Notes under the pieces: generated by a model | The model's database searches: none | What the model saw: the letters and a program-made list of their open reading frames with translations, nothing else | What the model was told of the DNA's origin: nothing | Assembly: GCF_040529065.1 (NCBI RefSeq) | Contig: NZ_CP132343.1 | Span: 2,728,001 to 2,792,000 of the forward strand | Reading direction: 5' to 3' | DNA: 64,000 bases | From: Xanthomonas sacchari | GTDB taxonomy: Bacteria; Pseudomonadota; Gammaproteobacteria; Xanthomonadales; Xanthomonadaceae | Made by a program: the position numbers and the translations under genes | In this document: one piece after another, positions 5,038 to 27,639 of the stretch | How positions within the stretch are numbered: position 1 is the stretch's first letter | Layout: each line of letters begins with the position of its first letter

Positions 5038-5318
5038 GCATCGATCCTTCGTTGGTGATCCATACGCGAGGGCGTGGCATCAAGCGCGCCAAACCGCGAA
5101 TCCAGGAACTGCGCGAGTGCGTGGATGCTGGGATGATCGAACAGCCATTCGAGATCGACCTCGACGCCGAGCGCATCCTCGAGCTTGCGCGTCAGGCGCA
5201 GGCCGATCAAGGAATCCACGCCCTGCTCGGCGAAGGTCTGGGTCACCGAGATCTGCGCCGCATCGACCTCCAGCAGTTCCGACAATGCCTGTTTCAGCCA
5301 CAGCTCGCGCGCGCTCAT
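5034..5318 (-). CDS. Free-standing acyl carrier protein
   Basis: A 94-residue carrier protein with the phosphopantetheine site GVDSL (Ser36), preceded by a four-helix-type acidic sequence. It should carry a fatty acyl group made by the ligase encoded just upstream and offer it to the starter C domain of the NRPS. A good Shine-Dalgarno (GAGGAG) lies 9 nt before the ATG at 5318. Its stop overlaps the NRPS start. The position between a fatty acyl-AMP ligase and an NRPS is the usual arrangement for lipopeptide initiation; the acyl chain length cannot be read from sequence. Confidence 0.9.
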   Translation of the reverse strand: MSARELWLKQALSELLEVDAAQISVTQTFAEQGVDSLIGLRLTRKLEDALGVEVDLEWLFDHPSIHALAQFLDSRFGALDATPSRMDHQRRIDA

Positions 5319-5435
5319 CGATCACAGCTCCTCAGCCTTGAGAAAAACCGCCAACGCCACCCATCAACGTGACAACAGCAACTCCTTGAGACGCACTTGC
5401 ATGGTCGAGCGGCAAACGGCAGATCGATGATCGAC

Positions 5436-7181: not shown

Positions 7182-7562
7182 TGCAAATGGCTGAACGATG
7201 TTTCCCCTCGTGGCGGCCCGCAGCACATCAGAGGCCAACCGTCCCTGCGATTTACTTTTCCACCGATATCTTGCTTCGTCAAGCCTGCTGCGTGTATATA
7301 ACCGCGACGGAACTACAGGGACGAACCGGAAGATGACACGCTCTGCATGTTGCTCTTCGAGATGGAATTCACACTTGACGTCCCATCCTGATGAGCGCGG
7401 ACGCGCCGTCCCATTGATGGCTCATGCGCCAGACGCATTTGGTGCTCGCTCCCGGGCGTTGTGCAAAGAATCGGGACATATCCCGAACGACATGCCGCCT
7501 GGCGGGCTGCAGACCGATCAAAGGGCAGCACGCCGGCACGCGCCATCGAACCGCAGCGCGTG
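7182..7562. promoter_or_regulatory. Divergent intergenic region between the FAAL operon and the acylase gene
   Basis: About 380 bp without a credible gene. It must hold the promoters of both arms of the lipopeptide locus. It contains an AT-rich TATATAACC stretch near 7295-7305 that could supply a -10 on either strand. I see no Fur-box-like sequence and no clear inverted repeat. Confidence 0.45.
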
Positions 7563-9989: not shown

Positions 9990-10030
9990 TCTGGTAAGCC
10001 ACGACGTCGTTTGCCCCGAGGAACCCCGAG

Positions 10031-11737: not shown

Positions 11738-11910
11738 GGTGGGCATCGTCATCGATCCTGCAGCTTGAGGCTCGTTGGAGCCACTCCTCTATTCAGTGAG
11801 ACGCCCAACAATGAGCCACACAGCGTCCCGTCGGCCGGGGCGCAAGATCGCAGCGGAGCGCCCGAGGGAGATCATTGCTTGGCACGCCCACCGGCGCCTC
11901 CAGCACTCGC
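11738..11910. terminator. Convergent intergenic region with a small hairpin
   Basis: Separates the ends of the exporter (+) and a permease (-). A short GGCTC-gttg-GAGCC hairpin at about 11769-11782 may end transcription; there is no T tract, so this is weak. Confidence 0.3.
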
Positions 11911-13128
11911 TCAGATCGAGCGTGTTGCCGCTGCTGGCGGAATCGACGCAGCCTGGCGCGCAGGCACCAGCACCGCCAGCTGGCCCATCAGCCAAAGCAC
12001 GATGGCACCGATCGGCAGATAGCCTAGTGGGAGACGCGGCAACTCGTACTTGCTCATCAGTAGATAGTTGATGGCATAGGCCAGGAACATCCCCAGCACG
12101 ATGCCGACCGTGGATAGAAGGAAGTTCTCCGTCTGAAAATAGCGCAGGATCTGCCTACGGGTCGCTCCCAGTGCGCGTCTGACGCCGATCTGGCGCGTGC
12201 GCTGCTGTACCCAGAAACTGGCAAGTCCGATGATGCCGAGCGCGGTGATCACCAACAGCGCCGCGCAGACAATCACCAGCAGCCAGGCCATTTCTCGGTC
12301 CTGCTGGTAGTAGCTGTCGCGCATTTCCTGCACGGTATCCTGCTTGAGGATGATCCGATTCGGATCTATCCGCTTCAGCGCGTCCACTGCGCGTTGCAGC
12401 ACCTCGGCACGGCGCGAAGGATCGTCGACGCGCAGCAAGTAGGTGGGGAAACCTCCTTCCACCGGCAGCATGATGGCGTACTCGTAAGAAGAAGGATCGT
12501 TGAAACCATGCGGCTGCACCAAGTGCTCGACCACGCCGACGACCTTGATGGGCGCGTCGTTCCACGCATAGAAGGACTTCCCGAGTGGATCCTGATCGGG
12601 AAACAGTCTATTGGCCATGGCCCGCGTGATGATCGCTGACGGGATACCGACGTTGCTGTTGGGGGCGTCGAGCGCGCTCCATTCGATGAACTCGTCGGAT
12701 AGGAAGCGCCGCCCTGCGACCAGGTTCAATCCCATCGTGTCCAGCAGCTGTTTGTCGCCGATGTAGTAGGCCGTCTCGAACAACGGGGATTGGTCGGGTG
12801 TCAACTTGACGTCCAGGCTCCTGCCCAACAGCCCCAGAGGCACGGAGTTCGAGACTGCGGCAAGCTTGACGCCAGACAATGCGCGCAAGGCAGCCAGGTC
12901 TTCCTTGGCGCGTGCGCTTGCCTGATCGTCATTCCCGCTCTTGGCCAACTGGATACGCACCAGCTCGCCCTCCGCCAGCCCTGTCTTGCGATCCATCAAT
13001 TGCAAACGACTGTGGATCAGGAACACCGCATTGCACAGAATGGCGCAGCTGACGGCGATCTCCAACACGATCAGCATCGCAGCCGTCTTGTGCCGGCGTA
13101 GTGCCGAGAAAATGGGGCGGATGTCCAT
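11911..13128 (-). CDS. FtsX/MacB-type ABC transporter permease, second copy
   Basis: Inner-membrane permease, 405 aa from the ATG at 13128, which has GAGGAA upstream. An N-terminal membrane segment (MLIVLEIAVSCAILCNAVFL) is followed by a large periplasmic domain and a C-terminal FtsX domain with three membrane segments and the conserved QIGVRRALGATRRQI. MacB-type permeases work with a separate LolD-like ATPase and usually a periplasmic adaptor. Here the ATPase gene is broken and no adaptor is visible, so activity is doubtful unless an ATPase elsewhere serves. By analogy with PvdT it may have exported the mature peptide. Confidence 0.9.
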   Translation of the reverse strand: MDIRPIFSALRRHKTAAMLIVLEIAVSCAILCNAVFLIHSRLQLMDRKTGLAEGELVRIQLAKSGNDDQASARAKEDLAALRALSGVKLAAVSNSVPLGLLGRSLDVKLTPDQSPLFETAYYIGDKQLLDTMGLNLVAGRRFLSDEFIEWSALDAPNSNVGIPSAIITRAMANRLFPDQDPLGKSFYAWNDAPIKVVGVVEHLVQPHGFNDPSSYEYAIMLPVEGGFPTYLLRVDDPSRRAEVLQRAVDALKRIDPNRIILKQDTVQEMRDSYYQQDREMAWLLVIVCAALLVITALGIIGLASFWVQQRTRQIGVRRALGATRRQILRYFQTENFLLSTVGIVLGMFLAYAINYLLMSKYELPRLPLGYLPIGAIVLWLMGQLAVLVPARQAASIPPAAATRSI

Positions 13129-13223
13129 GGAGTTCCTCGGTGATGGCGTGCCCCAGGGTTGACCGGGAGCTGGATCTGGTTGCGTCGGGCCTTTCGCCCG
13201 ATACTCTGCTGGCCGCCAGGCGG

Positions 13224-14540
13224 CTAGTCGGTCTTGAGTTGGATTGCCGGCGCGATCTGACATGCGCGGAACGCAGGCAGCAAGCCAGCAAGGACGCTAG
13301 TGCCGATGGCGAGCACAAAGGTGACAATCAGCATGGCGGGATCCAGCTGCGCCAACTCCGCATAACTTGCCGAGCGCTGGCGCACGGCCCACAGGCCCAG
13401 CAGCGCGAATCCCAAGCCGAGGACGCCCCCGGCCAGCCCTATCACGCCCGCTTCAACCAGATATTGGCTGAAAATCGTGCGATGCGATGCGCCGAGCGCG
13501 CGGCGCACCGCGATCTCGCTCGATCGGCGAAGAAACTTCGCCAGCAGCAGGCCACTGGTATTGAGCAGGCACACGACCAAGAAGCCGAAGGCCAGCCAAA
13601 CCTGCAGACGCACATCGCTCGGCACCACCTTTTTGTAGTCGAGCCATTCCATCAGGCTACGCAGTCTCACGTTGGTGGGCCGCTGGTAGCGGCCAGCGGC
13701 CCGCTGCTGATTGGAGTAATTGATGAGGTATTGCCTGTACGCCGCCACCTTTTCGGGCGAGTCGAGCTGGACCCAGTACTGCAGCCAAGCACAGGGCGCA
13801 TTGACGCCTGTCGTACCTTCCGGTTCCTCTTCCAGGTCGTCGCCGCCCCAACAGTGCATGCGGCCCGAGGCGTCCATCTTGAGGTCGCGCGACGTCGAGA
13901 AGGGGATGAACACTTGCTCGGTCTCGCCATAGAGGCTGCCGTACGGATCGTAGAACTTCGGGATGGGGCGCCAATCGTTGAGAACACCGACGATGCGGAA
14001 CTCGTTCTGGCTCAACCAGACAGACTTGCCCACGCTGTTGCTTCCGCCGAACAGCTTGTCGTTGAGCGACTTTGCGATGACCACAATACGGCTGCGGCTG
14101 TCGTCCTCCGACTTGCTCCAGGCATTGCCGTAAAGAAATGGCGTGGCGAACATCGGAAAGAAGTCGCCGGACGTGTAACGTGCATCCACCGAGAATGAAC
14201 CTAACTCCACACGTTCAGGCCTGACCACCACGCTGCCGCGCTTCATCACCGCCTGGCGGTCGCCGCGCGCCTGGCGCAGCAACGTCTCCGCATCGTACCG
14301 CGTCATCTGGTCCTCGGGCTCTTCGCCAGGCATGAAGTTTTCCTTGTCGGCCGGATCCAGCTGGGGATAAAACAACGTCTGGCTCCGGCCGGGCAAAGGA
14401 TCACCAGAAAGGATGTAGAACACCGTCAGTGTCGTCATGCTCGCGCCGATACCCAGCGCAATCGCCAGTACCATCAGCGCAGTCAGCATCCGGTTCCGCT
14501 TGAAGCTTCGCAGCGCCAGGTCGAAGTAGTATCCGAACAT
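13224..14540 (-). CDS. FtsX/MacB-type ABC transporter permease, first copy
   Basis: 438 aa from the ATG at 14540 (MFGYYFDLALRSFKRN). N-terminal membrane segment ALMVLAIALGIGASMTTLTV, large periplasmic domain with DPLPGRSQ, and a C-terminal FtsX domain with SEIAVRRALGASHRTIF. It precedes the second permease by 95 nt on the same strand, and follows the remains of an ATPase gene by 86 nt. The pair is the usual layout of an ATPase-permease-permease operon. Both permease frames are intact although the ATPase is not. Confidence 0.9.
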   Translation of the reverse strand: MFGYYFDLALRSFKRNRMLTALMVLAIALGIGASMTTLTVFYILSGDPLPGRSQTLFYPQLDPADKENFMPGEEPEDQMTRYDAETLLRQARGDRQAVMKRGSVVVRPERVELGSFSVDARYTSGDFFPMFATPFLYGNAWSKSEDDSRSRIVVIAKSLNDKLFGGSNSVGKSVWLSQNEFRIVGVLNDWRPIPKFYDPYGSLYGETEQVFIPFSTSRDLKMDASGRMHCWGGDDLEEEPEGTTGVNAPCAWLQYWVQLDSPEKVAAYRQYLINYSNQQRAAGRYQRPTNVRLRSLMEWLDYKKVVPSDVRLQVWLAFGFLVVCLLNTSGLLLAKFLRRSSEIAVRRALGASHRTIFSQYLVEAGVIGLAGGVLGLGFALLGLWAVRQRSASYAELAQLDPAMLIVTFVLAIGTSVLAGLLPAFRACQIAPAIQLKTD

Positions 14541-14626
14541 GTGATCTCTCTTTGCGCTATCCCTAGGGCGGCGACGATTTCCCGGCGCCGCAACGATCCA
14601 ATGAAGCGGCAGCTGCCAGCGCTCCG

Positions 14627-14980
14627 TTACCAGAGCATGTGCTCCCGCGCAATCGCCGCGAGGCTTTCTCGTTTTCCGGCCATACCCGTGGCAATGCCAT
14701 TGATAACGTGGACGTCGTGCTGCACGCGGGCAACCAGTTCTGCCTCGCGCGTCACTACGACCACGGCAGGGCCCAGTGCCTGGATCTGCCCAATCAGCTC
14801 CAGGTTTTCCCATGCCATATGCGAATCCGGGATGTTCAAGAATGCCGTCTTGCCGAAGCAGGAATGCCCGTTGATGGCGATGAACTCTTCCGTTTTTGCA
14901 TCCAGGTCGAGCGGACGCGCTGGATACGCTTCGACCATTTCCCTGCGATAGACCTTGCTGACCTGACGCATCTCAAGCAT
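14627..14980 (-). pseudogene. Decayed LolD/MacB-type ABC ATPase with an internal deletion
   Basis: Only 117 codons where the family has about 230. The start is a clear match (MLEMRQVSKVYRREMVEA, PLDLDAKTEEFIAING). The Walker A site is damaged: G-H-S-C-F-G-K-T instead of GxSGSGKT. Directly after it the frame jumps to what looks like the C-terminal part of the domain (GPAVVVVTREAELVARVQ), so the Q-loop, signature and Walker B parts are gone and the H-switch His reads Arg. The frame stays open, so a short product could be made, but it could not hydrolyse ATP. It lies upstream of, and in line with, the two permease genes it once served. Confidence 0.85.
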
Positions 14981-16210
14981 GTAGGTTCCCTGGCGGTAGA
15001 TCGAGCGACATCACCTGCATGGAAAAACGTGCGGGAGGCAAGGCACATCGCAAAGCGCCCCACACTGTGGATCGTGACATAGCAGCAGCGATGGCCGCCC
15101 GCGCACGGGGCACTGCCAATGCGCTACCGCATGGGATGAGGGGCGCCCGAAAGAGGGGCTCACATGCGGAGCGAGTCCCCTGCACCTCCCTGTTCCCGAG
15201 GCAGTACGCGAGAGCTGGGTTCGTGGCACGCCTCCCTGGGCGTGAGCCACATTCCCGGCACTTCCGCGCCGGACCGCGCGCATCGCCAAGACCCTGCACG
15301 CGCTTCCGATCCAGCCCCTGGCGCACATGCTTGCCTGCTCGACTCGCTCCTTCCTGGCGTCCCGTACGCCAGGACCTCCCCCATGCTGAATCATCCGACA
15401 GCAGCCGGCACGTCCAATCGATCTGCGAAGCCCGGAAAGGCGCGAATGCGGCGTTGATCGTCCATGCGTCTGCCGTCGTTGCATTGGTTTGCCCGCCTCA
15501 CATTAAGCACTATTTGCGTGTGTCACAAGTAGACGATGTGCAAAGATGAGATATATGGCGTAAGTGTCCGCCCGGACACTGAGCTGTCCGGGCGGACACT
15601 CTCGATGAAGCCGCGAGATCACTGGCCCGGTACGACCCGTGCAGATCCTTGGGCCGAACCTTGGAACCGCGCCTCCAGTTTGAAGCCCGGACCCGACGAT
15701 GGGCCAAGGAATTCCTTTTTGCACGGGTTCTCTGGACGGCAAGTGTCGACATGAACAAGGTCAGGCGCGCCCATATATGGCCATCATGCTTGGGTTATCG
15801 GCGATCCTACGGACCGGTACAAGGCCCATTTATAGGCTGCAACCGCAAGCATCTCGGGGATCGGCCGGTTCAGCATTGCGCTCCAGGCCCGTCCGCGAGT
15901 GACGGTTTGAATACTGCTTCTAACGGCCTCTGGTCGAAGGCTCCCTTGCTCGCTCGAGCAGCTAGCTTGCCTCGGCTGCTTAAGACGCAACAGCAGAGGA
16001 TGCATGTCGTTGAACCACCTGCTCACCTGATCCGCCAGTGTGTCTCCATCAGCCAATCATGCCCGTTTGCGTGTTGTGCAAGCCCTCGCATGGAGACCGC
16101 TACTGGGAGAGACTTGGCACGGCATCGTCGAATCACTCGCCGATGTCCAAGTCTGGATGGCGTGCGGCGTGATCGAACTGCACAGATAGCGACGATCACA
16201 CCCACCAACC
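14981..16210. other. 1.2-kb stretch without a convincing gene; likely scar region
   Basis: Open frames exist here (for example 15011-15484 and 15784-16056 on the minus strand) but their translations have the Cys/Arg/Ser-rich make-up of chance frames and I recognise none. The part from about 15480 to 16050 is visibly less GC-rich than its surroundings and contains the 36-bp palindrome at 15564. Together with the broken ATPase just beside it, the stretch looks like a deletion or mobile-element scar between the NRPS locus and the MoxR-VWA operon. Confidence 0.5.
15564..15599. repeat. Perfect 36-bp palindrome (15-bp arms, 6-base loop)
   Basis: Arms GTGTCCGCCCGGACA and TGTCCGGGCGGACAC are exact reverse complements around CTGAGC. 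Beyond the arms the likeness continues weakly, so read outward each side begins TGTCCGGGCGGACACT. This could be two insertion-sequence ends brought together, or a strong hairpin. I cannot name an element. Confidence 0.85.
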
Positions 16211-17392
16211 TCACCGCACCGTCACCAACCCCTGCGCCCCCGCCCACTGCTGGATGTCGTCCCGGCGGATCGCCGCGGCCATCAGGCCCGGAAAGGCGTC
16301 CGGCGTGCAGGCGAACGACGGCACGCCCAGCGCTGCCAGCTTGGCGGCCAGGGCGCGGTCGTAGGACGGTGTGCCTTCGTCGCTGAGGGCCAGCAGCACG
16401 ATGAATTGCACGCCGGATTCGATCAGTTCGCGGGCGCGCGCCAGCAGCCGCTCCTCGACGCCGCCTTCGTACAGGTCGGAGATCAGCACCAGGATGGCGT
16501 TGTGCGGTTCGCGGATGATGCCCTGGCAGTAGCTCACCACGCGGTGGATGTCGGTGCCGCCGCCCAGTTGCACGCCGAACAGCAGGTCCACCGGGTCGTC
16601 CAGCTGCTCGCTCATGTCGACCACTTCGGTGTCGAACACGACCAGGCGCGTGGACACTGCCGGCAGCGAGGCCATCACCGCGCCGAAGATGCTGGAATAC
16701 ACCACCGAGGCGGCCATGGAGCCGCTCTGGTCGATGCACAGCAGCACTTCGCGTTGCGGCTTCCTGGCCTTGCGGCCATAGCCGACCAGGTCCTGCGGCA
16801 CCACGGTGCGCAGGTCCGGCTGCCAGTGCCGCAGGTTGCTGCGGATGGTGCGGTGCCAGTCGATCTCGGCCAGGCGCGGGCGGCGGTTGCGGCGGGCCCG
16901 ATCCAGGGCGCCGGTCACCGCCGAGCGCATCGGTTCCTCCAGTTGGCGCAGCAGGCGCTCCACCACCTGGCGCACCACCATGCGCGCGGTGTCCTTGGTC
17001 TGCGCCGGAATCACCCGGCTCAGGCCGATCAGGTTGGCGACCAGGTGCACGTCGGGCTGCACCTGCTCGAGCATTTCCTTTTCCAGCAGCATCTGGGTGA
17101 GGTCCAGGCGCTGCAGGGCGTCGCGTTGCATCACCTGCACCACCGACGACGGAAAGTAGCGGCGGATGTCGCCCAGCCAGCGGGCCACATTGGGCGAGGA
17201 GGCCCCTCGCCCGCCGCGGCGCCCCAAACCGCCCGGCCCATCGGGTTCGTACAGCGCGCCCAGCGCCTGGTCGATGCCCTGCAGCAGCTTGGGCAAGGCG
17301 CCGCAACTCGACTCGGCCTCCTGCCCCAGGATCAGGCGCCAGCGCTGCGCGCGCGAGGTGGGCGTGTCGGGTGTGGATGGCGTGTCGGTCAT
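16211..17392 (-). CDS. von Willebrand factor A domain protein, last gene of SWIM-DUF5691-MoxR-DUF5682-VWA operon
   Basis: 393 aa from the ATG at 17392, which overlaps the stop of the DUF5682 gene (ATGA). The C-terminal half is a VWA fold with a complete metal-ion-dependent adhesion site: CIDQSGSM near residue 220, GGGTDI near 280 and LISDLYEGG near 305. The N-terminal half is helical and carries no motif I recognise. VWA proteins encoded beside MoxR ATPases usually act as their partner or adaptor, recognising a target protein for remodelling. No signal peptide, so it is cytoplasmic. Confidence 0.9.
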   Translation of the reverse strand: MTDTPSTPDTPTSRAQRWRLILGQEAESSCGALPKLLQGIDQALGALYEPDGPGGLGRRGGRGASSPNVARWLGDIRRYFPSSVVQVMQRDALQRLDLTQMLLEKEMLEQVQPDVHLVANLIGLSRVIPAQTKDTARMVVRQVVERLLRQLEEPMRSAVTGALDRARRNRRPRLAEIDWHRTIRSNLRHWQPDLRTVVPQDLVGYGRKARKPQREVLLCIDQSGSMAASVVYSSIFGAVMASLPAVSTRLVVFDTEVVDMSEQLDDPVDLLFGVQLGGGTDIHRVVSYCQGIIREPHNAILVLISDLYEGGVEERLLARARELIESGVQFIVLLALSDEGTPSYDRALAAKLAALGVPSFACTPDAFPGLMAAAIRRDDIQQWAGAQGLVTVR

Positions 17393-19704
17393 GCGGGCAA
17401 TCCCAGCAGTTCGCGCAGCGTCGGCACCGCGCGCTCGGCGCGGGCCAGGTTCCAATCGGGGACGACAGCGGCTTCGGTTTTCTCCACCTGCGCCTGGCGC
17501 ACACGCGTTCCCAGATCGCGGCGGTCGGCCGGCGGGAAGGCGGCGAAGGTGCGACGCACCAGCGGCAGCACGCGCACCAGTTGTGCTTCGTCCAGCGCCA
17601 CGACCCAGGCGTCGATCATCTGCCACACGGCGTCGTCGTGCAGCAGCACGGTGGCGTTGCGGTTGAGGAAGCCGTCCAGCCACTGTGCGGCCTGCAGCGG
17701 TTCGGCGCCGGGCGACAGTTGCTGCTGCAGTTGCAGGTGCACGCTGTCGGCCTGCACCGCCTGCGTGTCGAACAGTACCCGCAGGGCGACGCCGCGTAGC
17801 AGCGCGTTGCATGCCGGCGACAGCGCCACGCGTCGCAAGGCCTGCTGCCAGTTGCCGCTGCCGTCCGCATCGCCGCGCAGGCCGATGGCGCGGTCGGCGT
17901 CCAGGACGATGCCGCGTGCCTGCTCGGCGCGGGCCTCGTCGAGGCTGGACAGCGCCAGGGTCAGGCCGACGACCGCACGCGCCAGCATGCTGTCGAACAG
18001 ATGCGCGACCTGGTGGCCCTCGGTCTGGCGGACATTGCCATAGCGGTACACGTTGGCCAGCGGCGGCAGTGCGCCGAGCAGCGCCAGCGGGTCGGCATCG
18101 GTGGCGGCACGGGCCTCGAGTTCGGCCGCAATCGCGCTGACCGCCTGCGGCAGGTCGGCCAGCAGCACCTGGTCCACCAGCGCGGACAGCGCGGGCAACG
18201 CCTCGGCCTTGCGTGCCTGCGCGATGGCCATGCTGGACGCGGCATCGACCAGGGTCTGCCCGTGGCGGCTGGCTTGCACCAGGTCCACCAGAAAGTGCGG
18301 CTGCCAGGCCAGTTGCCAGATCTCGTGGAAGGTGCCGCGTGCGGACTGCCCGGTGCGCGCCAGCCGGCCCCATTCGATGCCGATCAGGCGCAGCCGATGC
18401 AGCAGATGGCTGCGCGCCAGGTCGGTGTCCTTGCGCAGGTCCAGATCCAGGGTCTTTTCCAACGCTTCGGGTTTCAGGCGCAGGCGCTTCTGCTGCGCCT
18501 CCAGGTCGCGCTGCAGCGGCACCGCCGGCACGCTGTCGGGCACCTGTCCCAGGGCGTCGCCGATCATCAGGCGCTCGCGGATGAGCCGCATCGGCGCATC
18601 GTCGCCGTTGCAGATGACCGCGCGGCTGGCTTCGGCGATGTCCTCCAGGCCAGGGGCTGGATGGCCACGCAAGGCGGCGAGCGTGTCAGCCAGGCGCGTG
18701 GCCTCGATCAGGTGCGCCGACGAGCAATCGAGTCCGTGCTCGCGCAACAGGCGCCCCACCCGCGCATACCAGCCGGCGGCGCGCTGGTCGTGGACGCCGC
18801 TGCTGCGCCACAGGTGGTCGTACCAGCCCGGCGCTTCAACGCCGGCGCCGTAGCCACTGTCCATGCTCAGGTGGCGATAGGTCCACGGCACCCAGGTGCT
18901 CTGCGTCTTACGCTTGGGCATGGCCTTGAGCAGGCGGCTGTCCGCGGTGGCGCTGTTGGCACGCAACGCGTCCGGCTGCAGCGCCGGCACATGCCAGGCG
19001 CCGCAGACCACCGCAACGCGCGCGAAGGTCTTGCCGGCACTGCGCAGCGCGCTGCGCATGTGGGCCTCGCGCACGGCTTCGTGTTCGCCGCGCAGGCCGG
19101 GGTGATCCGGCGTGTGTGCGCGCACCGCGGTCATGGCCTCGGCGATGGCATCGAACAGGCCCTGCCCGTCGCCGCGCTCCTCCACCATGTGGTTCCACCA
19201 GGTCTCGCCGTCGGCATGGCCGGCGGCGCGCGCCAGCCAGTCCAGCGGATCGGACGGACGTACCTCGGCGCTGCCCTCCCCGTCTGGATCGGCAGCGTCC
19301 GGCACAGGTAGCGGCGTGTCCGCCTGCTCCGGCATGTCGTGGGCCTGCGCAGGCGCACGCTCGGCACGTGCCTGCGCCTGCCATTCCAGGGTCAAGGCGG
19401 GCGGCACATCCATGAAGCGCACCGGCACGCCGTTGTGCAGCGCCCAGTGCATGGCCTGCCACTCCGGGGAGTACGCCGCATAGGGATGGAACACCGCCAG
19501 TTGCGGGTCGTCGACGCAGTAGGACAGCAGGGCCACCGGCGGCTGCATGCCCTCCTCCAGCACGTGCGGCAGCAACGCCTCGGTGCCGGCCGGCCCTTCG
19601 ATCAACACGCAGTCCGGCTGCAGCGCCGTCAATGCGGCGACCAGGCTGCGCGCGCAGCCGGGGCCGTGGTGGCGAATGCCGAACAGGGAGATGGCGTCGC
19701 TCAT
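17389..19704 (-). CDS. DUF5682 family protein, possible EreA/TraB-like hydrolase fold
   Basis: 771 aa from the ATG at 19704, 14 nt after the MoxR gene. The N-terminus reads SLFGIRHHGPGCARS, followed by PDCVLIEGPAGTE; further on is VVCGAWHVPAL with His238. The HH...E...GxxH spread is reminiscent of the TraB/TIKI/erythromycin-esterase group of metal-dependent hydrolases; this is my reading, not a search result. The rest is long and alpha-helical without known motifs. It always appears to travel with MoxR and VWA genes of this type as far as I recall. The molecular role is not known to me. Confidence 0.85.
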   Translation of the reverse strand: MSDAISLFGIRHHGPGCARSLVAALTALQPDCVLIEGPAGTEALLPHVLEEGMQPPVALLSYCVDDPQLAVFHPYAAYSPEWQAMHWALHNGVPVRFMDVPPALTLEWQAQARAERAPAQAHDMPEQADTPLPVPDAADPDGEGSAEVRPSDPLDWLARAAGHADGETWWNHMVEERGDGQGLFDAIAEAMTAVRAHTPDHPGLRGEHEAVREAHMRSALRSAGKTFARVAVVCGAWHVPALQPDALRANSATADSRLLKAMPKRKTQSTWVPWTYRHLSMDSGYGAGVEAPGWYDHLWRSSGVHDQRAAGWYARVGRLLREHGLDCSSAHLIEATRLADTLAALRGHPAPGLEDIAEASRAVICNGDDAPMRLIRERLMIGDALGQVPDSVPAVPLQRDLEAQQKRLRLKPEALEKTLDLDLRKDTDLARSHLLHRLRLIGIEWGRLARTGQSARGTFHEIWQLAWQPHFLVDLVQASRHGQTLVDAASSMAIAQARKAEALPALSALVDQVLLADLPQAVSAIAAELEARAATDADPLALLGALPPLANVYRYGNVRQTEGHQVAHLFDSMLARAVVGLTLALSSLDEARAEQARGIVLDADRAIGLRGDADGSGNWQQALRRVALSPACNALLRGVALRVLFDTQAVQADSVHLQLQQQLSPGAEPLQAAQWLDGFLNRNATVLLHDDAVWQMIDAWVVALDEAQLVRVLPLVRRTFAAFPPADRRDLGTRVRQAQVEKTEAAVVPDWNLARAERAVPTLRELLGLPA

Positions 19705-19718
19705 CGGCGCCGGCCCGC

Positions 19719-20801
19719 TCAGGCCTGCTCGCGGAACGCGCGGTACAGGTCCTTCCAGTCCTCGCGCTCCTTCACGACGGTTTCCAGGTATTCCTTCCAC
19801 ACCAGCGCATCCTGCACCGGATCCTTGACGATCGCGCCGATCATGCCGGCCGCCATGTCGCCCGGGCGCAGCACGCCGTCGCCGAAATGGCCGGCCAGGG
19901 CCATGCCGTTGTTGATCACCGAAATGGCCTCGGCCGTGGAGAGCGTGGCGGTCGGGCTCTTCAGCTTGGCCTTGCCGTCCTCGGTGACGCCATTGCGCAG
20001 CTCGCGGAAGATGCGCACCACGCGCGCCACTTCCCGCAGCGCCGGCGGTTCGGCCGGCAGGTCCAGCGCCGCCCCCATTTCGGCCACGCGCTTGCGCACG
20101 ATCGCCACTTCGTCCTCCTCGCTGGACGGCACCGGCAGGATCACGGTGTTGAAGCGGCGCTTCAGTGCACTGGACAGCTCATTGACGCCCTTGTCGCGGT
20201 TGTTGGCCGTGGCGATCACGCTGAAGCCGCGCACCGCCTGCACTTCGCTGCCCAGTTCCGGAATCGGCAGGGTCTTTTCCGATAGCACGGTGATCAATGC
20301 GTCCTGCACATCGGCGGGAATGCGGGTGAGTTCCTCGATGCGGGCGATCTTGCCCAGGCGCATGGCCTGCATCAGCGGGCTCGGCACCAGCGCCTTCTCG
20401 CTGGGGCCGTTGGCCAGCAGCTGCGCGTAGTTCCAGCCGTAGCGGATCTGCTCTTCGCTGGTGCCGGCGGTGCCTTGCACCAGCAGCGTGGAATCGCCGC
20501 TGATCGCCGCGGTCATGTGCTCGGAGACCCACGACTTGGCGGTGCCCGGCACGCCGAACAGCAGCAGGGCGCGATCGGTGGCGATGGTGGCCACGGCCAC
20601 TTCCATCAGGCGGCGGTCGCCGATGTACTTGGGGCTGACCACGAAGCCGTTCTCCAGCGTGCCGCCGATCAGATAGGTGACCACGGCCCAGGGCGAGAGC
20701 AGCCAGTTGGCGGGCCGTTGGCGGCTGTCCTGGCGACGCAGTTCCTCCAGTTCCTCGGCGTATTGGTGTTCGGCGTGCTGGCGCAGGACGGCAGTGCTCA
20801 T
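19719..20801 (-). CDS. MoxR-type AAA+ ATPase
   Basis: 360 aa from the ATG at 20801 (MSTAVLRQH), with GGAG upstream. Motifs: Walker A FGVPGTAKS near residue 80; Walker B region IARIEELTRIP, in which the usual Asp-Glu pair is Glu-Glu; sensor 1 VIATANNRDKG; and the RRF arginine-finger region. MoxR proteins remodel or insert cofactors into target proteins with the help of a VWA partner, here two genes downstream. The Glu-for-Asp change in Walker B looks like a trait of this subfamily rather than damage, since the surrounding block is well kept. Confidence 0.93.
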   Translation of the reverse strand: MSTAVLRQHAEHQYAEELEELRRQDSRQRPANWLLSPWAVVTYLIGGTLENGFVVSPKYIGDRRLMEVAVATIATDRALLLFGVPGTAKSWVSEHMTAAISGDSTLLVQGTAGTSEEQIRYGWNYAQLLANGPSEKALVPSPLMQAMRLGKIARIEELTRIPADVQDALITVLSEKTLPIPELGSEVQAVRGFSVIATANNRDKGVNELSSALKRRFNTVILPVPSSEEDEVAIVRKRVAEMGAALDLPAEPPALREVARVVRIFRELRNGVTEDGKAKLKSPTATLSTAEAISVINNGMALAGHFGDGVLRPGDMAAGMIGAIVKDPVQDALVWKEYLETVVKEREDWKDLYRAFREQA

Positions 20802-20827
20802 GAGGTCTCCAGTGAAAGGCGTGAGGA

Positions 20828-22354
20828 TCAGGATGCGGCGTGCAGGGTCTGGCGCAGGGCCAGGAGCTGGCGGGCCTGCTGCACGCAATCGAGCATGGCA
20901 GCGGTGGCGTCCGCGGGCGGATCGGCCAGCTGCACCTGCGGCAGCGCGGAAGGATGCAGGACGGCGAGCAGTTCCAGCAGCGCGTCGCGCAGGGTGTAGT
21001 CGTGACGCAGCGTGGCCTCGCCGAACAGCGCGCCCAACTCCGACGCTAACCGCTGCGAATACGCCGCGCTCAGGGTCTGGCCAAGCACGGTGCTGGCCAG
21101 CACGTCGCCGAGCAGGCGCTGCTGCTGCAGCTCGGCGGCGCTGGCCGGCCAGTGCCGTTCGCGCTGCGCCGGCGGCAACAGGGCGAGCAGGTCGCCCAAA
21201 CTCAGCAACCGCTGCTCCACGCCGATCAGCGCTTCCACCCAGGCCGGTTCGCTGGCGTCCACGCGTTCCAGCCAGGCCCGCAGCAAGGCGTCGTACCACT
21301 CGGTGCCGCGCGCCCAGGCCAACACCTCTTCCGGGGTCTTCTCCAGGGTGTCGCACCACCAGGCAAGCGGCAGCTGCCGCGCCAGTTGGTAGAGCCACCA
21401 GGCGCGTTCGCCGAGGGCGTCGTGATCCGGCCGCTTGCCGTCGATGGCCGCGTCGGTCCAACCGGGATCGGCGGCGGACGGCGCATCCAGCGTCCAGCTC
21501 ACCCGGCGCAGCAAGCCGCTGCGCTGTTGCCGCAGCATGCCAAGCATCTGCGTGCGCAGGTATTGCGCATGCGCCGTGTTCGCCAGCCGCGCCAGCATCG
21601 GCCCGGCAAGCAGCCGCACTTCGCGGCTGCGATCCTTCAACAGCTGCTGCAGCAAGGGCGCGTCGGCATCGCCCAGTTGCGCCTGCAAGGCCTCGACGCA
21701 GGCCGCGCGTTCGCGCGCAGATAGATCCTTGAGTGCGGCTTCCAGGCGCGAGCGTGCGCCAGAGGCGTCCTGCGTGCGCAACTGCCGCAAGGCCAGCAAC
21801 CGGGTGTCGAACGTGCCGTCGTTCCACATGCGCTCCAGATCTGCAGGCGTCTGCGCCGCCTCAACCGCATCGGCGGCGTAGGCCCACTCCGCATTGCGCG
21901 CCGCCAGCCAACGCCCGCGCATGCCCAGCACCAGGCGCAAGGCGCTTCGCAACGCAGCCACGCGCGCGCCTGCATCCAATGCCTGCGGCAGTACCGCGAC
22001 CGGCAGATGCTGGCCGCGAGCGGCCAACTGCAGGCAGGCCTCGTTGCGCAGGCGCTTCAGCCACGCGGGCGGCTGCTGGCCGGCGAACAGCCCCCGCAAC
22101 ACCGGCAACCAGGGATGATCGGCGGGCAGCACCTGCGGATCCGGCTGTGCAGGCGGCACGAGCGGCATTGGCTCGCCCAGACGCAGCGCCGCACGCCGGC
22201 AGGCCGCCAACGCGCCCACCTGAAGGCTGTAGCCCAGTGCGGCGTCCTCCTGCGTGGCGATGGCAGCGAGCACCTCGCCGAGCGCGCCGTCGACCGGGAT
22301 CCGTTGCGGACGATCGATGCCCAACAGCGCCGGCTTCAACCAGACTTCGTTCAT
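20828..22354 (-). CDS. DUF5691 family protein with HEAT-like repeats
   Basis: 508 aa from the ATG at 22354, overlapping the stop of the SWIM gene (ATGA). Sequence is rich in Ala, Leu and Arg and almost all helical. A central part looks like HEAT repeats (SREVRLLAGPMLARLAN). No catalytic motif seen. By position it belongs with the SWIM, MoxR, DUF5682 and VWA genes; HEAT-like proteins are often scaffolds, so a binding platform for the complex is a reasonable guess. Confidence 0.85.
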   Translation of the reverse strand: MNEVWLKPALLGIDRPQRIPVDGALGEVLAAIATQEDAALGYSLQVGALAACRRAALRLGEPMPLVPPAQPDPQVLPADHPWLPVLRGLFAGQQPPAWLKRLRNEACLQLAARGQHLPVAVLPQALDAGARVAALRSALRLVLGMRGRWLAARNAEWAYAADAVEAAQTPADLERMWNDGTFDTRLLALRQLRTQDASGARSRLEAALKDLSARERAACVEALQAQLGDADAPLLQQLLKDRSREVRLLAGPMLARLANTAHAQYLRTQMLGMLRQQRSGLLRRVSWTLDAPSAADPGWTDAAIDGKRPDHDALGERAWWLYQLARQLPLAWWCDTLEKTPEEVLAWARGTEWYDALLRAWLERVDASEPAWVEALIGVEQRLLSLGDLLALLPPAQRERHWPASAAELQQQRLLGDVLASTVLGQTLSAAYSQRLASELGALFGEATLRHDYTLRDALLELLAVLHPSALPQVQLADPPADATAAMLDCVQQARQLLALRQTLHAAS

Positions 22355-23691
22355 GCCGCGCTCCTTTCCCAACGCTCGCCTTGCGCATTCCAGGCGCTGA
22401 GCGGCAACAGCGTATCGCCATCCCACTCGCCCATCAGACACAACGGATGGCCGCCCGCGAACGCGAGCAGCGCCCAGCCCTGCAACGCGGACACCTGCAG
22501 GGGCAGGCTGCCGTCGGCGTGCTGCGCCCAGGCGCTGCGGCCATCGTGCGCGATGTGAACGTCCTGCAGGCGCATGGGGACCTGCGGCAGCCAGGGATTG
22601 AGCGCATGCGCGCGGGCGGCGGCGTCGAGGGTGTCGGTGCATGGCGGCGCGGCGGCTGCCTGCACCCCGGCATCCACCTCGCCCGGGACGGCACGCAACG
22701 GCACCGTACCCGGATGGAAGTGCAGGCGGCCGACATGCACGTCGCCATTGCGCCAGTGCTGCTCCCAGCCGCGCCCACCGTGGCTGTAGTCCTGCAGCAA
22801 CGCCGGACGACCGCTATCCATGCCGTGCAGCCACACGCGGCGCTCCAGCAGATTCCCCGGCTGCTCGATCAGGAGCTGGCCCTGGACATGCCAGCGATCG
22901 TGCACCGCCTCGCCGTCGCGCAGCACCGTCTCGCGCTCCAGCGGCCAGCCCAGCGCCGCGCGCAGATCGGCCTGCCGCGTGGCGCTGAAATCCTCCGCCC
23001 GCAGCACCGCGTGGGCCAACAGCTGCAGCAGGCCGAGGCGCTCGCCGAGATCGGCCAGTTGCGCGAGATCGCGACCGCCCTCGCCCACGGCGCGCTCCAA
23101 CTGCGTGGCCAGCCCCGGTGCTTGCGCATCCACCATGCGCGCCATCATGCGCCGCGCGTCGTGGGCGAACTCCGTGCCCAGGTTGGCCAGGCCCTGGCGG
23201 AACTGGTCGGCGATCCAGCGTTGCAGTTCCATCGCGCCCGCCTGGATGCGCGCCCAGCGCGCCTGTTCGCGTTTGGCCGCCACCGCGGCCTGGGCCTGCG
23301 GGTCGGGCGGCGGCGCACTGGCGGCGACCTCCTTGCGCGCCACGCGCTCGCGGCGTCCCTGCATCCATTCGTCGACCCAGGCCGGACGGGTGCCCGGCAC
23401 GCAGCGCGGATTGCCGGCGGCATACAGCAACAGCATGGCCAGGCCATGCTTGCACGGGAACTTGCGGCTGGGACACGAGCAACGGCTGACCATCGCCGCC
23501 AGGTCCACCTGGGTCTGGTAGGGCTTGGCGCCACTGCCCTGGCATTCTCCCCACAGCACCTCGGCATCGGCCCCGAGCAGGCCCCATTTCGCGTCCGTGG
23601 CCAGGCCCGCGGCCGCCTTGGCCGATGCCGCATCGGGCGCAAGCGCGAGGACCTGCTCGCGGGTGAGTCGCACTTCCATATCCGTACTCAT
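22351..23691 (-). CDS. SWIM zinc finger protein, first gene of the MoxR-VWA operon
   Basis: 446 aa from the ATG at 23691 (MSTDMEVRL); the ATG at 23676 is a possible alternative. A SWIM zinc finger CSCPSRKFPCKH (CxCx6CxH) sits near residues 66-77. SWIM domains bind nucleic acid or protein; in the rest of the protein I see only alpha-helical and WQ-type segments. It is the upstream gene of the operon, so the promoter should lie in 23692-23790; a TATAAG hexamer on the minus strand at 23724-23719 is a possible -10. Confidence 0.87.
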   Translation of the reverse strand: MSTDMEVRLTREQVLALAPDAASAKAAAGLATDAKWGLLGADAEVLWGECQGSGAKPYQTQVDLAAMVSRCSCPSRKFPCKHGLAMLLLYAAGNPRCVPGTRPAWVDEWMQGRRERVARKEVAASAPPPDPQAQAAVAAKREQARWARIQAGAMELQRWIADQFRQGLANLGTEFAHDARRMMARMVDAQAPGLATQLERAVGEGGRDLAQLADLGERLGLLQLLAHAVLRAEDFSATRQADLRAALGWPLERETVLRDGEAVHDRWHVQGQLLIEQPGNLLERRVWLHGMDSGRPALLQDYSHGGRGWEQHWRNGDVHVGRLHFHPGTVPLRAVPGEVDAGVQAAAAPPCTDTLDAAARAHALNPWLPQVPMRLQDVHIAHDGRSAWAQHADGSLPLQVSALQGWALLAFAGGHPLCLMGEWDGDTLLPLSAWNAQGERWERSAA

Positions 23692-23790
23692 CTCAGCGTC
23701 GCGACGATGATAGCCGAGCTTATATGGCAATCCGCGACATCGTCGGGGCCGAACGCCTGCCCGCCCAGACTATCGGTCCGCGGCCGTGGC

Positions 23791-24012: not shown

Positions 24013-24132
24013 TGGGCAGGCCGCTGCTCGCTCGGCCTCGCCCTACTCTATCGCCAAGTGGTCTGCCTTGGTGCGTGTCGCATGGACGGCCGGATGCAGA
24101 ACCGCATCTACGCTCCGCAGCCGTCGCGGATA

Positions 24133-25383
24133 TCAGGCGTGGCGCTTGCGCGCCGTCGCCGCCGACGCACTGGTCGCCGTCGCATCGGCATCGCCCGCAG
24201 GCGCATGCGGCAAGCGCACCCGCGCGCACAGCCCTCCGCCCTCGCGGTTGGCGAATTCCAGCGCGCCGCCGTGCGCCTGGCAGATCGCCGCGGCGATCGA
24301 CAGGCCCAGGCCGCTGCCGCCGGAATGGCGCGCACGCGAGTCGTCGGCGCGCCAGAAGCGGTCGCCCATCCGCGCCAGCGCCTCCTCGTCGACGCCGGCA
24401 CCGCGGTCGGCGACGCGGATCAGCACACCCTCGGCATCGGCCTGCGCCTCCAGGGCCAGTTCGCCACCGGCCGCGGCGTAGCGCAGCGCATTGTCGATCA
24501 GCACCGACAGCACCTGGCCCAGGCGATCGCGGTCGGCGCTGATGTGCAGGTGGTCGGGGATGCGGACCTGCACCTGCATGCCGGCCTCCTGCAACGGCTG
24601 CGCGGCCCAGGTCAGGCGCTCGCGGACCAGCGCGCCGAGCGCGAACCGCTGCGGCTCCAGCATCAGCTGGTTGGCACGGGCCATCGACAGCAGGTGCAGG
24701 TCACCGACCAGGCGATTGATCTGCTCCAGCTGGCGCTGGACCATGCGCAACTGCTCTTCGCTGCTCGGGAACACTTGGTCGAGCATGCCCTGGACCCGTC
24801 CCATCGCTGCGTTGAGCGGCGTGCGCAACTCGTGCGCCAGCATCGCGCTGGACTCGCGCACCTCGCGTTCGTACTGCTGCAGCTGCGCACTCATGCCATT
24901 GAAGTCAATCGCCAGGCCGGCCAGTTCGTCCGGCGCGCCGGGCACCACCCGCGCGCGCGCGGCGAAATCGCCATCGCTGATCCGCCGCGCCGCCGCGGCC
25001 ACGTTGGAGAACTGCCGCGACAGCGGCCGCGAAGCGAGCAAGCCGCAGACCACGATCACCGGGATCGATGCCAGCACCATGCCCGCCAGCAGCCACCAGT
25101 CGCGGCTGGCCAGTCCGGGCAGGAAATCGGCGACGTCGTAATAGGTCTCGAACAGTTCCCACAGACGCCGCGCATTGCTGTGCGGATCCTCGCGCAGTTG
25201 CAGCATCTCCTGCCGCGCCTGCGGCGGCAGACGGCTCAGGGTGGAAACGTCCCAGATCGCGAAGCGCAGCACCATGCCCAGCGCGATCGCGATGATGGTC
25301 AACACCGCCAGCGCGCTCATGCGCAGGCCCACCCACTGCCACAGCGGCGCGTGGGGCTTGCGGCGGAACCAGGACCAGTTCAT
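24133..25383 (-). CDS. Two-component sensor histidine kinase of the efflux locus (BaeS/SmeS-like)
   Basis: 416 aa from an ATG at 25383 that overlaps the regulator's stop (ATGA). Two membrane segments (about 20-42 and 91-113) enclose a short periplasmic sensor loop, then a HAMP domain (SRPLSRQFSNVAAAARRI), the H-box AHELRTPLNAAMG near residue 184, and the ATP-binding domain with DNALRYA, DRGAGV and GGSGLGLSI. The short sensor loop resembles that of envelope-stress kinases. It should phosphorylate the regulator encoded just upstream. Confidence 0.93.
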   Translation of the reverse strand: MNWSWFRRKPHAPLWQWVGLRMSALAVLTIIAIALGMVLRFAIWDVSTLSRLPPQARQEMLQLREDPHSNARRLWELFETYYDVADFLPGLASRDWWLLAGMVLASIPVIVVCGLLASRPLSRQFSNVAAAARRISDGDFAARARVVPGAPDELAGLAIDFNGMSAQLQQYEREVRESSAMLAHELRTPLNAAMGRVQGMLDQVFPSSEEQLRMVQRQLEQINRLVGDLHLLSMARANQLMLEPQRFALGALVRERLTWAAQPLQEAGMQVQVRIPDHLHISADRDRLGQVLSVLIDNALRYAAAGGELALEAQADAEGVLIRVADRGAGVDEEALARMGDRFWRADDSRARHSGGSGLGLSIAAAICQAHGGALEFANREGGGLCARVRLPHAPAGDADATATSASAATARKRHA

Positions 25384-26069
25384 CGGAAGCGGTAACCGAT
25401 GGCGCGCACCGTCACCAGCAGCCCGGTGACCTGCTCGTGTTCCAGCTTCTTGCGCAGGTTGTGCACGTGCGCATCCACCACCCGCTCCAGCGCATCGCTG
25501 TCGGGCAGGCAGATCTCCAACAGTTCGCTGCGGGTGAAGGCCTTGAACGGCGTCTTCATCAGCGTCGCCAGGATGTTGAATTCGGTCGGGGTCAGTTCCA
25601 GCGCCACCTCCTGCCCGTCGGCATCGCGCACGGTGGCACGCACCGCGGCGGTGTCCACGGTGAGCCGTTCGTGGCGCAGCGGCTCCTCGCTGGCGCGTGC
25701 CGGCCCGGCGCGGCGTAGCACCGCAAACACCCGCGCCACCACTTCCTTGGGGCTGTACGGCTTGACCACGTAATCGTCGGCGCCGTAACGCAGCGCGCCG
25801 AGCTTCTCCGGTTCGTCGCCCATCGCGGTGACCATGATCACCGGCGTGTCGCTGCTGCGGCGGATCGTGGACAGCACCTCGGTGCCGCTGAGCCGCGGCA
25901 GCATCACGTCCAGCAGCACCAGGTCCGGCTTCCACTGCGCATGCACCGCCACCGCCTTCTGTCCATCCTCGGCGATGGTGACCTCGAAGCCGTCGCGACG
26001 CAGGTACGCCTCGAGAATGCTGGCGCTGTCGGCATCGTCTTCGACCAGCAGGATCTTCTTCGCGTGCAT
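25380..26069 (-). CDS. OmpR-family response regulator of the efflux locus (BaeR/SmeR-like)
   Basis: 229 aa. Receiver domain with acidic pair EDD, phosphoacceptor Asp54 (LLDVMLP) and Lys in VVKPYSP, then a winged-helix DNA-binding domain (ELTPTEFNILATLM ... VVDAHVHNLRKKLE). Transcribed away from the efflux operon that starts at 26179. Regulators in this layout commonly activate the divergent transport operon and themselves; here tandem TCTTGA repeats in the gap fit such a site. Confidence 0.95.
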   Translation of the reverse strand: MHAKKILLVEDDADSASILEAYLRRDGFEVTIAEDGQKAVAVHAQWKPDLVLLDVMLPRLSGTEVLSTIRRSSDTPVIMVTAMGDEPEKLGALRYGADDYVVKPYSPKEVVARVFAVLRRAGPARASEEPLRHERLTVDTAAVRATVRDADGQEVALELTPTEFNILATLMKTPFKAFTRSELLEICLPDSDALERVVDAHVHNLRKKLEHEQVTGLLVTVRAIGYRFR

Positions 26070-26091
26070 TGCCTGGTGCCCGTGTTTGGCG

Positions 26092-26114
26092 TCTTGATGG
26101 AATCTTGAAGATTC
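26092..26114. promoter_or_regulatory. Candidate OmpR-type operator: tandem TCTTGA repeats and a palindrome
   Basis: TCTTGA occurs at 26092-26097 and 26103-26108, 11 bp apart, that is one helical turn. The second copy is part of the palindrome GAATCTT-G-AAGATTC (26100-26114). OmpR-family regulators bind direct repeats with this spacing, and the site lies in the 109-bp gap between the regulator gene and the efflux operon. Confidence 0.6.
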
Positions 26115-26178
26115 CTAGAAGGCGGCTTGAACATGCCCGCCGATGCTGGCAGTCGAGTTCGATCACCCGACCGCCGCC

Positions 26179-27639
26179 ATGATTCTACCGTCCCGATTGC
26201 TTCGCCCGCGCCGCACCAATGCCCTGCTCGGCCTGCTCGCGCTCGCCCTGGGTGGCTGCTCCCTGGCGCCGGTCTACCAGCGCCCGCAGCCGGTCCTGCC
26301 GCCTACGCTGGGCGCGAGCACCGCGACCGCAGTTGCCGCCCCGGACCGCAGCGACACGGCGCTCACCGAGCAGGAGCAGCAGTTCGTGCGCGCATTCTCG
26401 CCGCAGCACGACCTGACCCCACTCGTCACCCAGGCGCTGGCCCACGACCCGGACTTCCGCAACGCCGTGCTGACCGTGCAACAGGCCCGCGCCCAGTACC
26501 GCATCGAACGCACGCAGCAGCTGCCGCAGCTCGGCCTCGATGCCCAGGGCACGCGCCGCGACTACGACGACGCGGCCACGCAGGCACGCTATGGCCAGAA
26601 GCTGAGTACCGTCGCAGTGGGCGTGGACGGCTTCGAACTGGACCTGTTCGGCAAGCTGGCCTCGTTGTCGGCGGCGGCGCAGCAGCGCTACCTGGCCTCC
26701 GAAGAGGGCCGGCAGGCGGCGCGCGGCGCGCTGATCGCCGAAGTCCTGCGTGCCTACACGCTGGAACGCGCCGCCCTGCAGAGCCAGCAGCAGACGCAGA
26801 CCATCGCCGAGCGCAGTGCCGCGCTGCTGGCGATCGCCACACGCCAGCAGGCGGTCGGGCTCATTTCCCGCGATGCGCTGGACCGCCAGCGCCACGACGA
26901 CGACCAGGCGCAGGCGCGCGCGCAACAAGCCGCCAGCGACCGCGCCGCCGCCCGCCGCGCCCTGCAACTGCTCGCCGGCTACGCCGCCCCGGACGGCGCC
27001 GGCACCCTGCAGGAGCTATTGCCCGGCGCCGAGCAGGACGACAGCCGCGCCTGGCGCGACCTCGATTCGCAGCTGCTGCTGCAGCGCCCGGACGTGCGCC
27101 AGGCCGAGGCCGAACTGCGCGCGCGCAATGCCGACATCGGCGCCGCGCGCGCGGCGTTCTTCCCGTCGATCCGCCTGAGCACCTCGCTGGGCACCGCCAG
27201 CGATGCATTGAACGGCCTGTTCATGCCCGGCAGCCGCACCTGGAGCTTCATGCCGCAACTGGTGCTGCCGCTGTTCGACGGCGGCCGCAACCGCGCCAAC
27301 CTGGACATCGCACAGCTGCGCAAGGACGGCGCGGTGGCCGACTACGAGAAGACCGTGGAGGCGGCGTTCCGCGAGGTCGCCGATGCGCTGGATGCGTTGC
27401 CAGCGCTGCAGCAGCGCGAACGTGGCGAACGCACCAATCTCGAACGCGAACGCCAGCGTGTGGCGCGCCTGCAGCAGCGCGTCGCGCAAGGTCTGCAGGA
27501 CCGCCCCGAGCTGTTGACCGGCGACATCCAGGCCGCGCAGGCCGAACTGGCGCATGTGCAGGCGCGTCAGGACCTGCTGCTCGATCGCATCGCGCTGTTC
27601 CGCGCGTTCTACGGCGTGCCGTTGCCGCACGCGCCCTGA
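26179..27639 (+). CDS. Outer-membrane efflux lipoprotein (OprM/NodT family)
   Basis: 486 aa from the ATG at 26179. A lipoprotein signal ends LLALALGGC, with the acylated Cys27 followed by SLAPVYQRP, the usual start of this family. The body shows the two long helical repeats of TolC-like channels and the signature LLLQRPDVRQAEAELRARNADI followed by ARAAFFPSI (split here for length). It forms the outer-membrane duct for the RND pump encoded downstream. First gene of a five-gene operon. Confidence 0.94.
   Translation: MILPSRLLRPRRTNALLGLLALALGGCSLAPVYQRPQPVLPPTLGASTATAVAAPDRSDTALTEQEQQFVRAFSPQHDLTPLVTQALAHDPDFRNAVLTVQQARAQYRIERTQQLPQLGLDAQGTRRDYDDAATQARYGQKLSTVAVGVDGFELDLFGKLASLSAAAQQRYLASEEGRQAARGALIAEVLRAYTLERAALQSQQQTQTIAERSAALLAIATRQQAVGLISRDALDRQRHDDDQAQARAQQAASDRAAARRALQLLAGYAAPDGAGTLQELLPGAEQDDSRAWRDLDSQLLLQRPDVRQAEAELRARNADIGAARAAFFPSIRLSTSLGTASDALNGLFMPGSRTWSFMPQLVLPLFDGGRNRANLDIAQLRKDGAVADYEKTVEAAFREVADALDALPALQQRERGERTNLERERQRVARLQQRVAQGLQDRPELLTGDIQAAQAELAHVQARQDLLLDRIALFRAFYGVPLPHAP

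Follow-up and report, generated by a model that had tools for sequence, protein, structure and literature searches.

A conserved five-gene SWIM-DUF5691-MoxR-DUF5682-VWA operon of Xanthomonas sacchari related to yehLMPQ of Escherichia coli

Layout of the operon and its proteins

We analyzed a 64,000-nucleotide (nt) stretch of Xanthomonas sacchari DNA (contig NZ_CP132343.1, positions 2,728,001 to 2,792,000; hereafter the window, in whose own numbering coordinates are given), in which five minus-strand genes at 16211-23691 encode, in order of transcription, a SWIM zinc-finger protein, a DUF5691 protein, a YehL-type MoxR AAA+ ATPase, a DUF5682 protein and a CoxE-type VWA protein. This five-gene cassette is real, widespread and co-inherited, and it is related to a known operon of Escherichia coli. 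Its genes lie at 22351-23691 (SWIM, 446 amino acids (aa)), 20828-22354 (DUF5691, 508 aa), 19719-20801 (MoxR, 360 aa), 17389-19704 (DUF5682, YehM family, 771 aa) and 16211-17392 (VWA, YehP family, 393 aa), with Pfam E-values of 1.2e-6 for SWIM, 1.3e-82 for DUF5691, 1.6e-37 for AAA_5 (MoxR), 1.2e-248 for DUF5682 and 6.4e-50 for VWA_CoxE. A preliminary description, made from the sequence alone, had the genes packed with ATGA overlaps or gaps of 14-26 nt, and the gene coordinates confirm this: 4-nt ATGA overlaps join SWIM to DUF5691 and DUF5682 to VWA, while the gaps are 26 nt between DUF5691 and MoxR and 14 nt between MoxR and DUF5682. A consensus scan found no promoter-like sites and fewer terminator-like sites than in shuffled sequences, a result that is uninformative either way. 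The window genome holds a single DUF5682 gene.

For DUF5682, profile comparisons (run with an unrelated control, and weaker in one repeat) indicate a relationship by sequence to TraB_PrgY_gumN. A TraB/TIKI-like alpha/beta domain is predicted at residues 1-252 (18949-19704), in which R11-H12-H13-G14-P15 forms motif 1 of a candidate active site (19660-19674; H12 pairs with the His of the first GxxH motif in TraB), followed by the candidate catalytic Glu E36 (19597-19599), by R212-ExxM216 as the counterpart of the TraB RDxxM motif (19057-19071), and by a second GxxH motif, G235-xx-H238 (18991-19002). R11, H12, H13, P15 and E36 occur in 81 of 82 alignment rows, the remaining row being gapped there, and R212, M216, G235 and H238 in all 82; the six residues R11, H12, H13, E36, R212 and H238 are also invariant across 18 sequences from three operon builds and 66 of the near type. 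The extra Glu of the ExH motif of one TIKI enzyme is absent from DUF5682, as it is from the TraB proteins compared. The structure model (predicted local distance difference test score, pLDDT, of 90.2) is compatible with the TIKI fold and adds a helical-repeat, HEAT-like tail at about residues 432-743 (17476-18411); Foldseek on this model gave no match below 0.001, and sequence searches of solved structures with the protein, the DUF5682 profile and the TraB profile gave no significant relative. Profiles, motif order and invariant residues thus make a TraB/TIKI-like N-terminal domain well supported, with the structure model lending less firm support. The HHGPG, PDxVLIEGP and GAWH elements singled out in the preliminary description are there and are conserved in local alignments. 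Its proposal of a TraB/EreA-type metal hydrolase, which had been staked on DUF5682 having a hydrolase fold, stands as to a TraB/TIKI-like domain, by sequence and with a compatible predicted structure; metal use by DUF5682 would be putative, and one TIKI-family enzyme is metal-independent (PMC6254334).

The MoxR protein has a Walker A motif, GVPGTAKS (residues 83-90; 20532-20555), and a Walker B with Glu156-Glu157 (20331-20336), and this pair, with the Glu for Asp already pointed out, is kept in 76/76 rows of local alignments. Likewise, the VWA protein was expected to have a complete metal site, and it carries a metal ion-dependent adhesion site (MIDAS) whose first part is DQSGSM (residues 221-226; 16715-16732), with D221, S223, S225 and D306 in 77/77 rows and T280 in 75/77. 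The idea that the two proteins form a remodelling pair fits this alignment evidence. The MoxR protein is nearer to YehL (234 bits, about 1e-78) than to RavA (E 0.2, not significant), and the VWA protein matches ViaA weakly (8e-5), E-values that come from tiny sets (four proteins for the RavA/ViaA comparison); the subfamily call compares YehL with RavA. Together with the VWA partner gene nearby, this agrees with YehL, a named MoxR subfamily (PMC3893208, PMC11432383). Against the Pfam bpMoxR model, the protein scored 18.4 bits, below the cut-off of 27.

The SWIM protein contains a CxCx6CxH finger at residues 71-82 (23446-23481), and its C-terminus is predicted, from the AlphaFold model (pLDDT 93.9) and structural matches, to form a tandem oligonucleotide/oligosaccharide-binding (OB) fold at about residues 254-440 (22372-22932), which accords with an earlier proposal that it binds nucleic acid; Foldseek on the model found no match below 0.001. 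A Caulobacter biofilm screen names a SWIM protein, which may or may not correspond to that of the window. DUF5691 had been described as a HEAT scaffold; by sequence, this is weak, as the HEAT_2 match (E 0.0022) lies below the Pfam cut-off, and DUF5691 is a possible HEAT-type scaffold.

Relation to yehLMPQ and spread across bacteria

The closest relative, which the preliminary description overlooked, is the yehL-yehM-yehP-yehQ operon of E. coli. In K-12 MG1655, positions 2200279-2210944 hold yehI (DUF4132), yehK, yehL (MoxR), yehM, yehP (VWA) and yehQ (SWIM). By blastp, the window MoxR is 41% identical to YehL (7e-78), DUF5682 is 27% identical to YehM (1.3e-35) and VWA is 35% identical to YehP (1e-74), so that their homology to these three proteins is well supported at the sequence level. 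The window SWIM and DUF5691 proteins gave no significant blastp match in the E. coli yeh region. Homology of the SWIM protein to YehQ beyond the finger was considered and is unsupported, only 32 columns (that is, the finger) being aligned; homology of DUF5691 to DUF4132 is also unsupported (hhalign E 0.003, probability 10%). The genes are near-core in E. coli: the yehL-yehQ stretch was matched in 5301 of 5426 genomes, with at least 80% of it in 5162; the other 125 genomes have no match to it. In E. coli ST131, a resistance transposon has been reported from the metG/DUF4132/yeh region (PMC9334617), which corresponds to positions 280-10945 of our locus L002, and yehQ and yehM appear among mutated genes in two E. 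coli papers, in the available parts of which no outcome is given for either.

A scan of named genomes gave at least 567 DUF5682 relatives, from which the 80 best were retained; because the best-scoring relatives were chosen, these 80 loci represent the near subfamily. Partners were found in most of them (SWIM in 67, DUF5691 in 72, MoxR in 74 and VWA in 75). The preliminary description had made its reading depend on the genes travelling together, and they do: among the 67 loci with room on both sides, which span several phyla, all five genes were present in 62, and in 61 the set lay on a single strand and followed the order seen in the window. Considering that gene order is kept across phyla, the operon is more than a chance arrangement. 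Order was judged from gene ends, so that adjacency is not strict, and in L033 and L067 MoxR and DUF5682 are separated by other DNA; the exceptions to the order are L065, L066, L085, L089, L095 and L105, in the last of which the SWIM-DUF5691 pair is inverted. In 5 of the 80 loci (L040, L062, L092, L103 and L106), SWIM and DUF5691 matches share one reading frame; an alignment of such fusions was discarded, as its DUF5691 rows were misplaced. Clusters of neighbouring genes in the 80 loci were of ATP-binding cassette (ABC) type in 11 and of other types in up to 5, at varied positions.

DUF5682 was matched in 14 of 398 genomes sampled from the phylum (the window genome included) and in 7 of 19 same-genus relatives. 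In a DUF5682 tree of 81 rows with 13 phylum-level groups, 19 label changes were counted against a minimum of 12, for which reason we consider that the family spread mostly by descent, with some transfer possible. A plasmid collection held DUF5682 relatives in 36 records, 16 of them covering 80% or more of the query, and several of the 36 were chromosome-sized. A Methylobacterium record that lacked annotation was left out. A Deinococcus taeanensis plasmid has a small gene between MoxR and DUF5682 (L135 8762-8998) in a five-gene set that is otherwise complete, and a DUF5682 relative lies in a phage-labelled 14-kilobase (kb) faecal scaffold (L180 1453-3558), the record of which is unverified.

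Other builds were seen in 20 further loci (L109-L128, from 18 genomes), which were chosen by DUF5682 and form part of the genus and phylum matches. MoxR was found in all 20 and VWA in 18, L115 ending at a contig edge and L117 having none within the stretch. A SWIM-finger gene was found by profile or pattern in 17 of the 20. A SWIM-DUF5691 pair leads the operon in 6, as in the window, while DUF4132 is found in 10, in 9 of which a SWIM-motif gene follows VWA, as in E. coli. DUF4132 sits between MoxR and DUF5682 in L125, L109 and L110 have a single long SWIM protein after VWA (the L110 copy with a HEAT_2 match below the cut-off), and neither large partner, DUF5691 or DUF4132, was seen in L115 or L128. 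In the near subfamily, a DUF4132 gene comes after the five-gene set at L072, L075, L083 and L090, and at L096 it is placed between DUF5682 and VWA. Tandem DUF4132 frames stand beside the MoxR-DUF5682 core in L117 (two, 11219-18987) and L118 (three, 11895-19001). From these DUF5691-type and DUF4132-type builds we therefore define MoxR-DUF5682-VWA as the core, to which a SWIM protein and one of the two large partners are usually added.

Genomic site and defence context

The cassette is shared with the congeneric genome G004 over 16208-23718 (82-89% identity); around it, the fetched G004 stretch matches the window on neither side, except for a two-component-system flank about 10 kb off. This flank (window about 24129-26900) is common to genomes G003, G008, G010, G011 and G019, in which the adjoining 15-16 kb is unrelated DNA. 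At the cassette site, G011 has GajA, a UvrD-type helicase, an E1-E2 protein of a cyclic-oligonucleotide-based anti-phage signalling system (CBASS) and a SMODS cyclase (L154 8200-16950), and GajA recurs in G008, there together with an LA2681-type HEPN gene and a partial UvrD match (L153 7500-15000). The site beside the two-component system is variable: where the window has the operon, two congeners carry Gabija (GajA-type) genes, and one of them CBASS genes as well. In G010 and G004, the site has ordinary genes among those examined, and the left neighbours in the window are permease, ABC-transporter and peptide-synthetase genes. Window 1-14980, which is partly of lower guanine-plus-cytosine content, contains peptide-synthetase, penicillin-amidase, ABC-transporter and FtsX/MacB-type permease genes and is perhaps a biosynthetic cluster. 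The mobilizable Iodobacter plasmid pl1 (L136 4339-21743) has a DUF4132-MoxR-DUF5682-VWA-SWIM set, with two DUF4132 genes, near transposases and next to restriction-modification genes of type I, for which M and S subunits are annotated.

With PADLOC 2.0.0, none of the five window proteins gave a match above noise (best E 0.0069). We also compared 137 genes flanking the 20 loci L109-L128 with 137 control genes from 20 hand-picked regions in 13 of the same 18 genomes. The flanks yielded 139 called genes, all used, and the control regions 289, from which 139 were taken by seeded sampling, after which two long genes per set were omitted; genes of at least 1200 aa, and SWIM-motif genes touching the cassette, were dropped before the test. 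Because genes were called with a home-made codon score, some were missed, and matches were counted per model only. At E <= 1e-40, 14 PADLOC models were matched in the flanks, each in 1 of 137 genes (names including PD-T4-6 and mad6), and 14 in the control, again each in 1 of 137 (RmrA, MzaA, SspA, DndA and RTasSbcB among them). Defence genes are therefore no more frequent in the flanks of the 20 loci than in the control regions, and the context evidence on a phage role is mixed.

Possible function and comparison with known systems

Our preferred reading, which we put forward tentatively and at somewhat short of even confidence, is that the operon encodes a remodelling machine built on YehL-type MoxR and VWA, whose own hydrolase is gated by nucleic acid and which is likely to act under genotoxic or similar stress. 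The SWIM/tandem-OB protein would bind nucleic acid, with RNA and single-stranded or damaged DNA as the probable ligands, and DUF5691 would bridge the protein to the MoxR ring. This ring, with the VWA protein docked, might employ ATP together with the metal site of VWA to remodel or unlock either DUF5682 or a bound target, upon which DUF5682 would cleave a peptide or ester bond; in the most likely setting, genotoxic or similar stress, nucleic-acid binding would gate the hydrolase. Mitomycin C induction of the DUF4132 protein DRA0166 of Deinococcus radiodurans, which is IrrE-dependent (PMC8533742), gives a lead towards genotoxic stress. In the NorQD system, client activation needs ATP hydrolysis and the MIDAS, although binding to the ring protein persists in MIDAS mutants (PMC9976466). 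No paper on DUF5682, DUF5691 or yehLMPQ was found in the literature searched (outside which most subscription journals lie), nor was functional work on the operon found among the matches listed for the yeh genes, DUF4132 and MoxR with SWIM or phage.

We weighed three other explanations. That the operon is an anti-phage or anti-plasmid conflict system, with SWIM/OB sensing foreign nucleic acid, MoxR/VWA as an ATP-dependent switch and DUF5682 as effector, seems rather doubtful to us. Its patchy presence in the genus, the GajA and CBASS genes beside the same two-component-system flank in congeners, the restriction-modification genes adjoining the plasmid copy in Iodobacter and the 36 plasmid-collection records (chromosome-sized ones included) argue for it, as does the description of MoxR-vWA ternary conflict systems (PMC7159879). 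Against this stand the PADLOC result, the absence of any excess in the flanks, the ordinary genes at the G010 and G004 sites and to the left in the window, and the retention of yehL-yehQ by most E. coli genomes. Alternatively, MoxR/VWA could be a maturation chaperone that loads DUF5682 or another enzyme with a metal or cofactor, like NorQD and CoxDE. The CoxE-type VWA protein with its complete MIDAS is consistent with this, NorQD offers a precedent, and DUF4132 and WGR/MolR proteins are tentatively tied to molybdopterin or molybdate (PMC8533742). However, neighbour clustering of the 80 loci, their flanks not being annotated singly, found DUF4132 as the only family in a fixed place (5 loci), an analysis that would miss an unlinked client, and the cassette carries its own invariant candidate hydrolase; we regard such a role as unlikely.

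ChaN is a ligand binder with a TIKI-like fold, and DUF5682 might similarly be a non-enzymatic, ligand-binding adaptor. One member of the superfamily lacks the catalytic 2His/2Glu set, and motif 1 of DUF5682 is RHH, as opposed to ExH in the same source (PMC6254334). Set against these points, the six invariant residues seem to exceed the needs of a fold alone, and we consider an adaptor quite unlikely. A bolder version of the preferred gated-hydrolase reading is equally improbable in our view: a pan-bacterial complex in which a tandem-OB/SWIM sensor, triggered by nucleic acid, would load the MoxR ring and so unlock a TIKI-fold protease. On this view, its two main builds, one with DUF5691 and one with DUF4132, would be interchangeable; its genes would be near-core in E. 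coli and, in the window's genus, be exchanged at a defence-holding site.

Operons of this build occur in several phyla, and nearly every complete E. coli genome examined carries the related genes. Through its homology to yehLMPQ, the operon can be tested directly in E. coli K-12. Should DUF5682 be a gated hydrolase, the operon would offer a case of a MoxR ring in control of an enzyme encoded alongside it.

Among known systems, the TraB/PrgY/GumN, TIKI, EreA and ChaN superfamily shares with DUF5682 the motif order GxxH-like, E, RExxM, GxxH, whereas the RHH of motif 1, the long helical-repeat tail and the MoxR-operon setting set DUF5682 apart. RavA-ViaA, NorQ-NorD and CoxD-CoxE likewise place an AAA+ MoxR protein beside a MIDAS-bearing VWA protein, of CoxE type in the window, but the window operon adds DUF5682 as a candidate hydrolase together with SWIM and DUF5691 partners, and differs in its Walker B Glu-Glu. 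The VMAP/iSTAND/beta-propeller MoxR-vWA ternary conflict systems (eLife 2020), for whose MoxR-vWA pair CoxD-CoxE has been proposed as origin (PMC7159879), also combine MoxR and vWA with a third component; in the window, this component is DUF5682 and the bpMoxR score is sub-threshold. No VMAP or iSTAND Pfam domain was named in the five window proteins, for which no dedicated search was made, and the main text of PMC7159879 mentions none of YehM, YehL, TraB and EreA. The E. coli yehLMPQ operon is closest, with homologous MoxR, DUF5682 and VWA proteins in identical order and a SWIM gene completing the operon, as is found in the window. It differs in that yehQ comes after VWA, whereas the window SWIM gene leads, and in that DUF4132 (yehI) adjoins the operon upstream and DUF5691 is missing, whereas the window has DUF5691 and no adjoining DUF4132 gene, a genome search having found none in the whole window genome. 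Because DUF5691 replaces DUF4132, we class the window operon as a variant of the yehLMPQ type.
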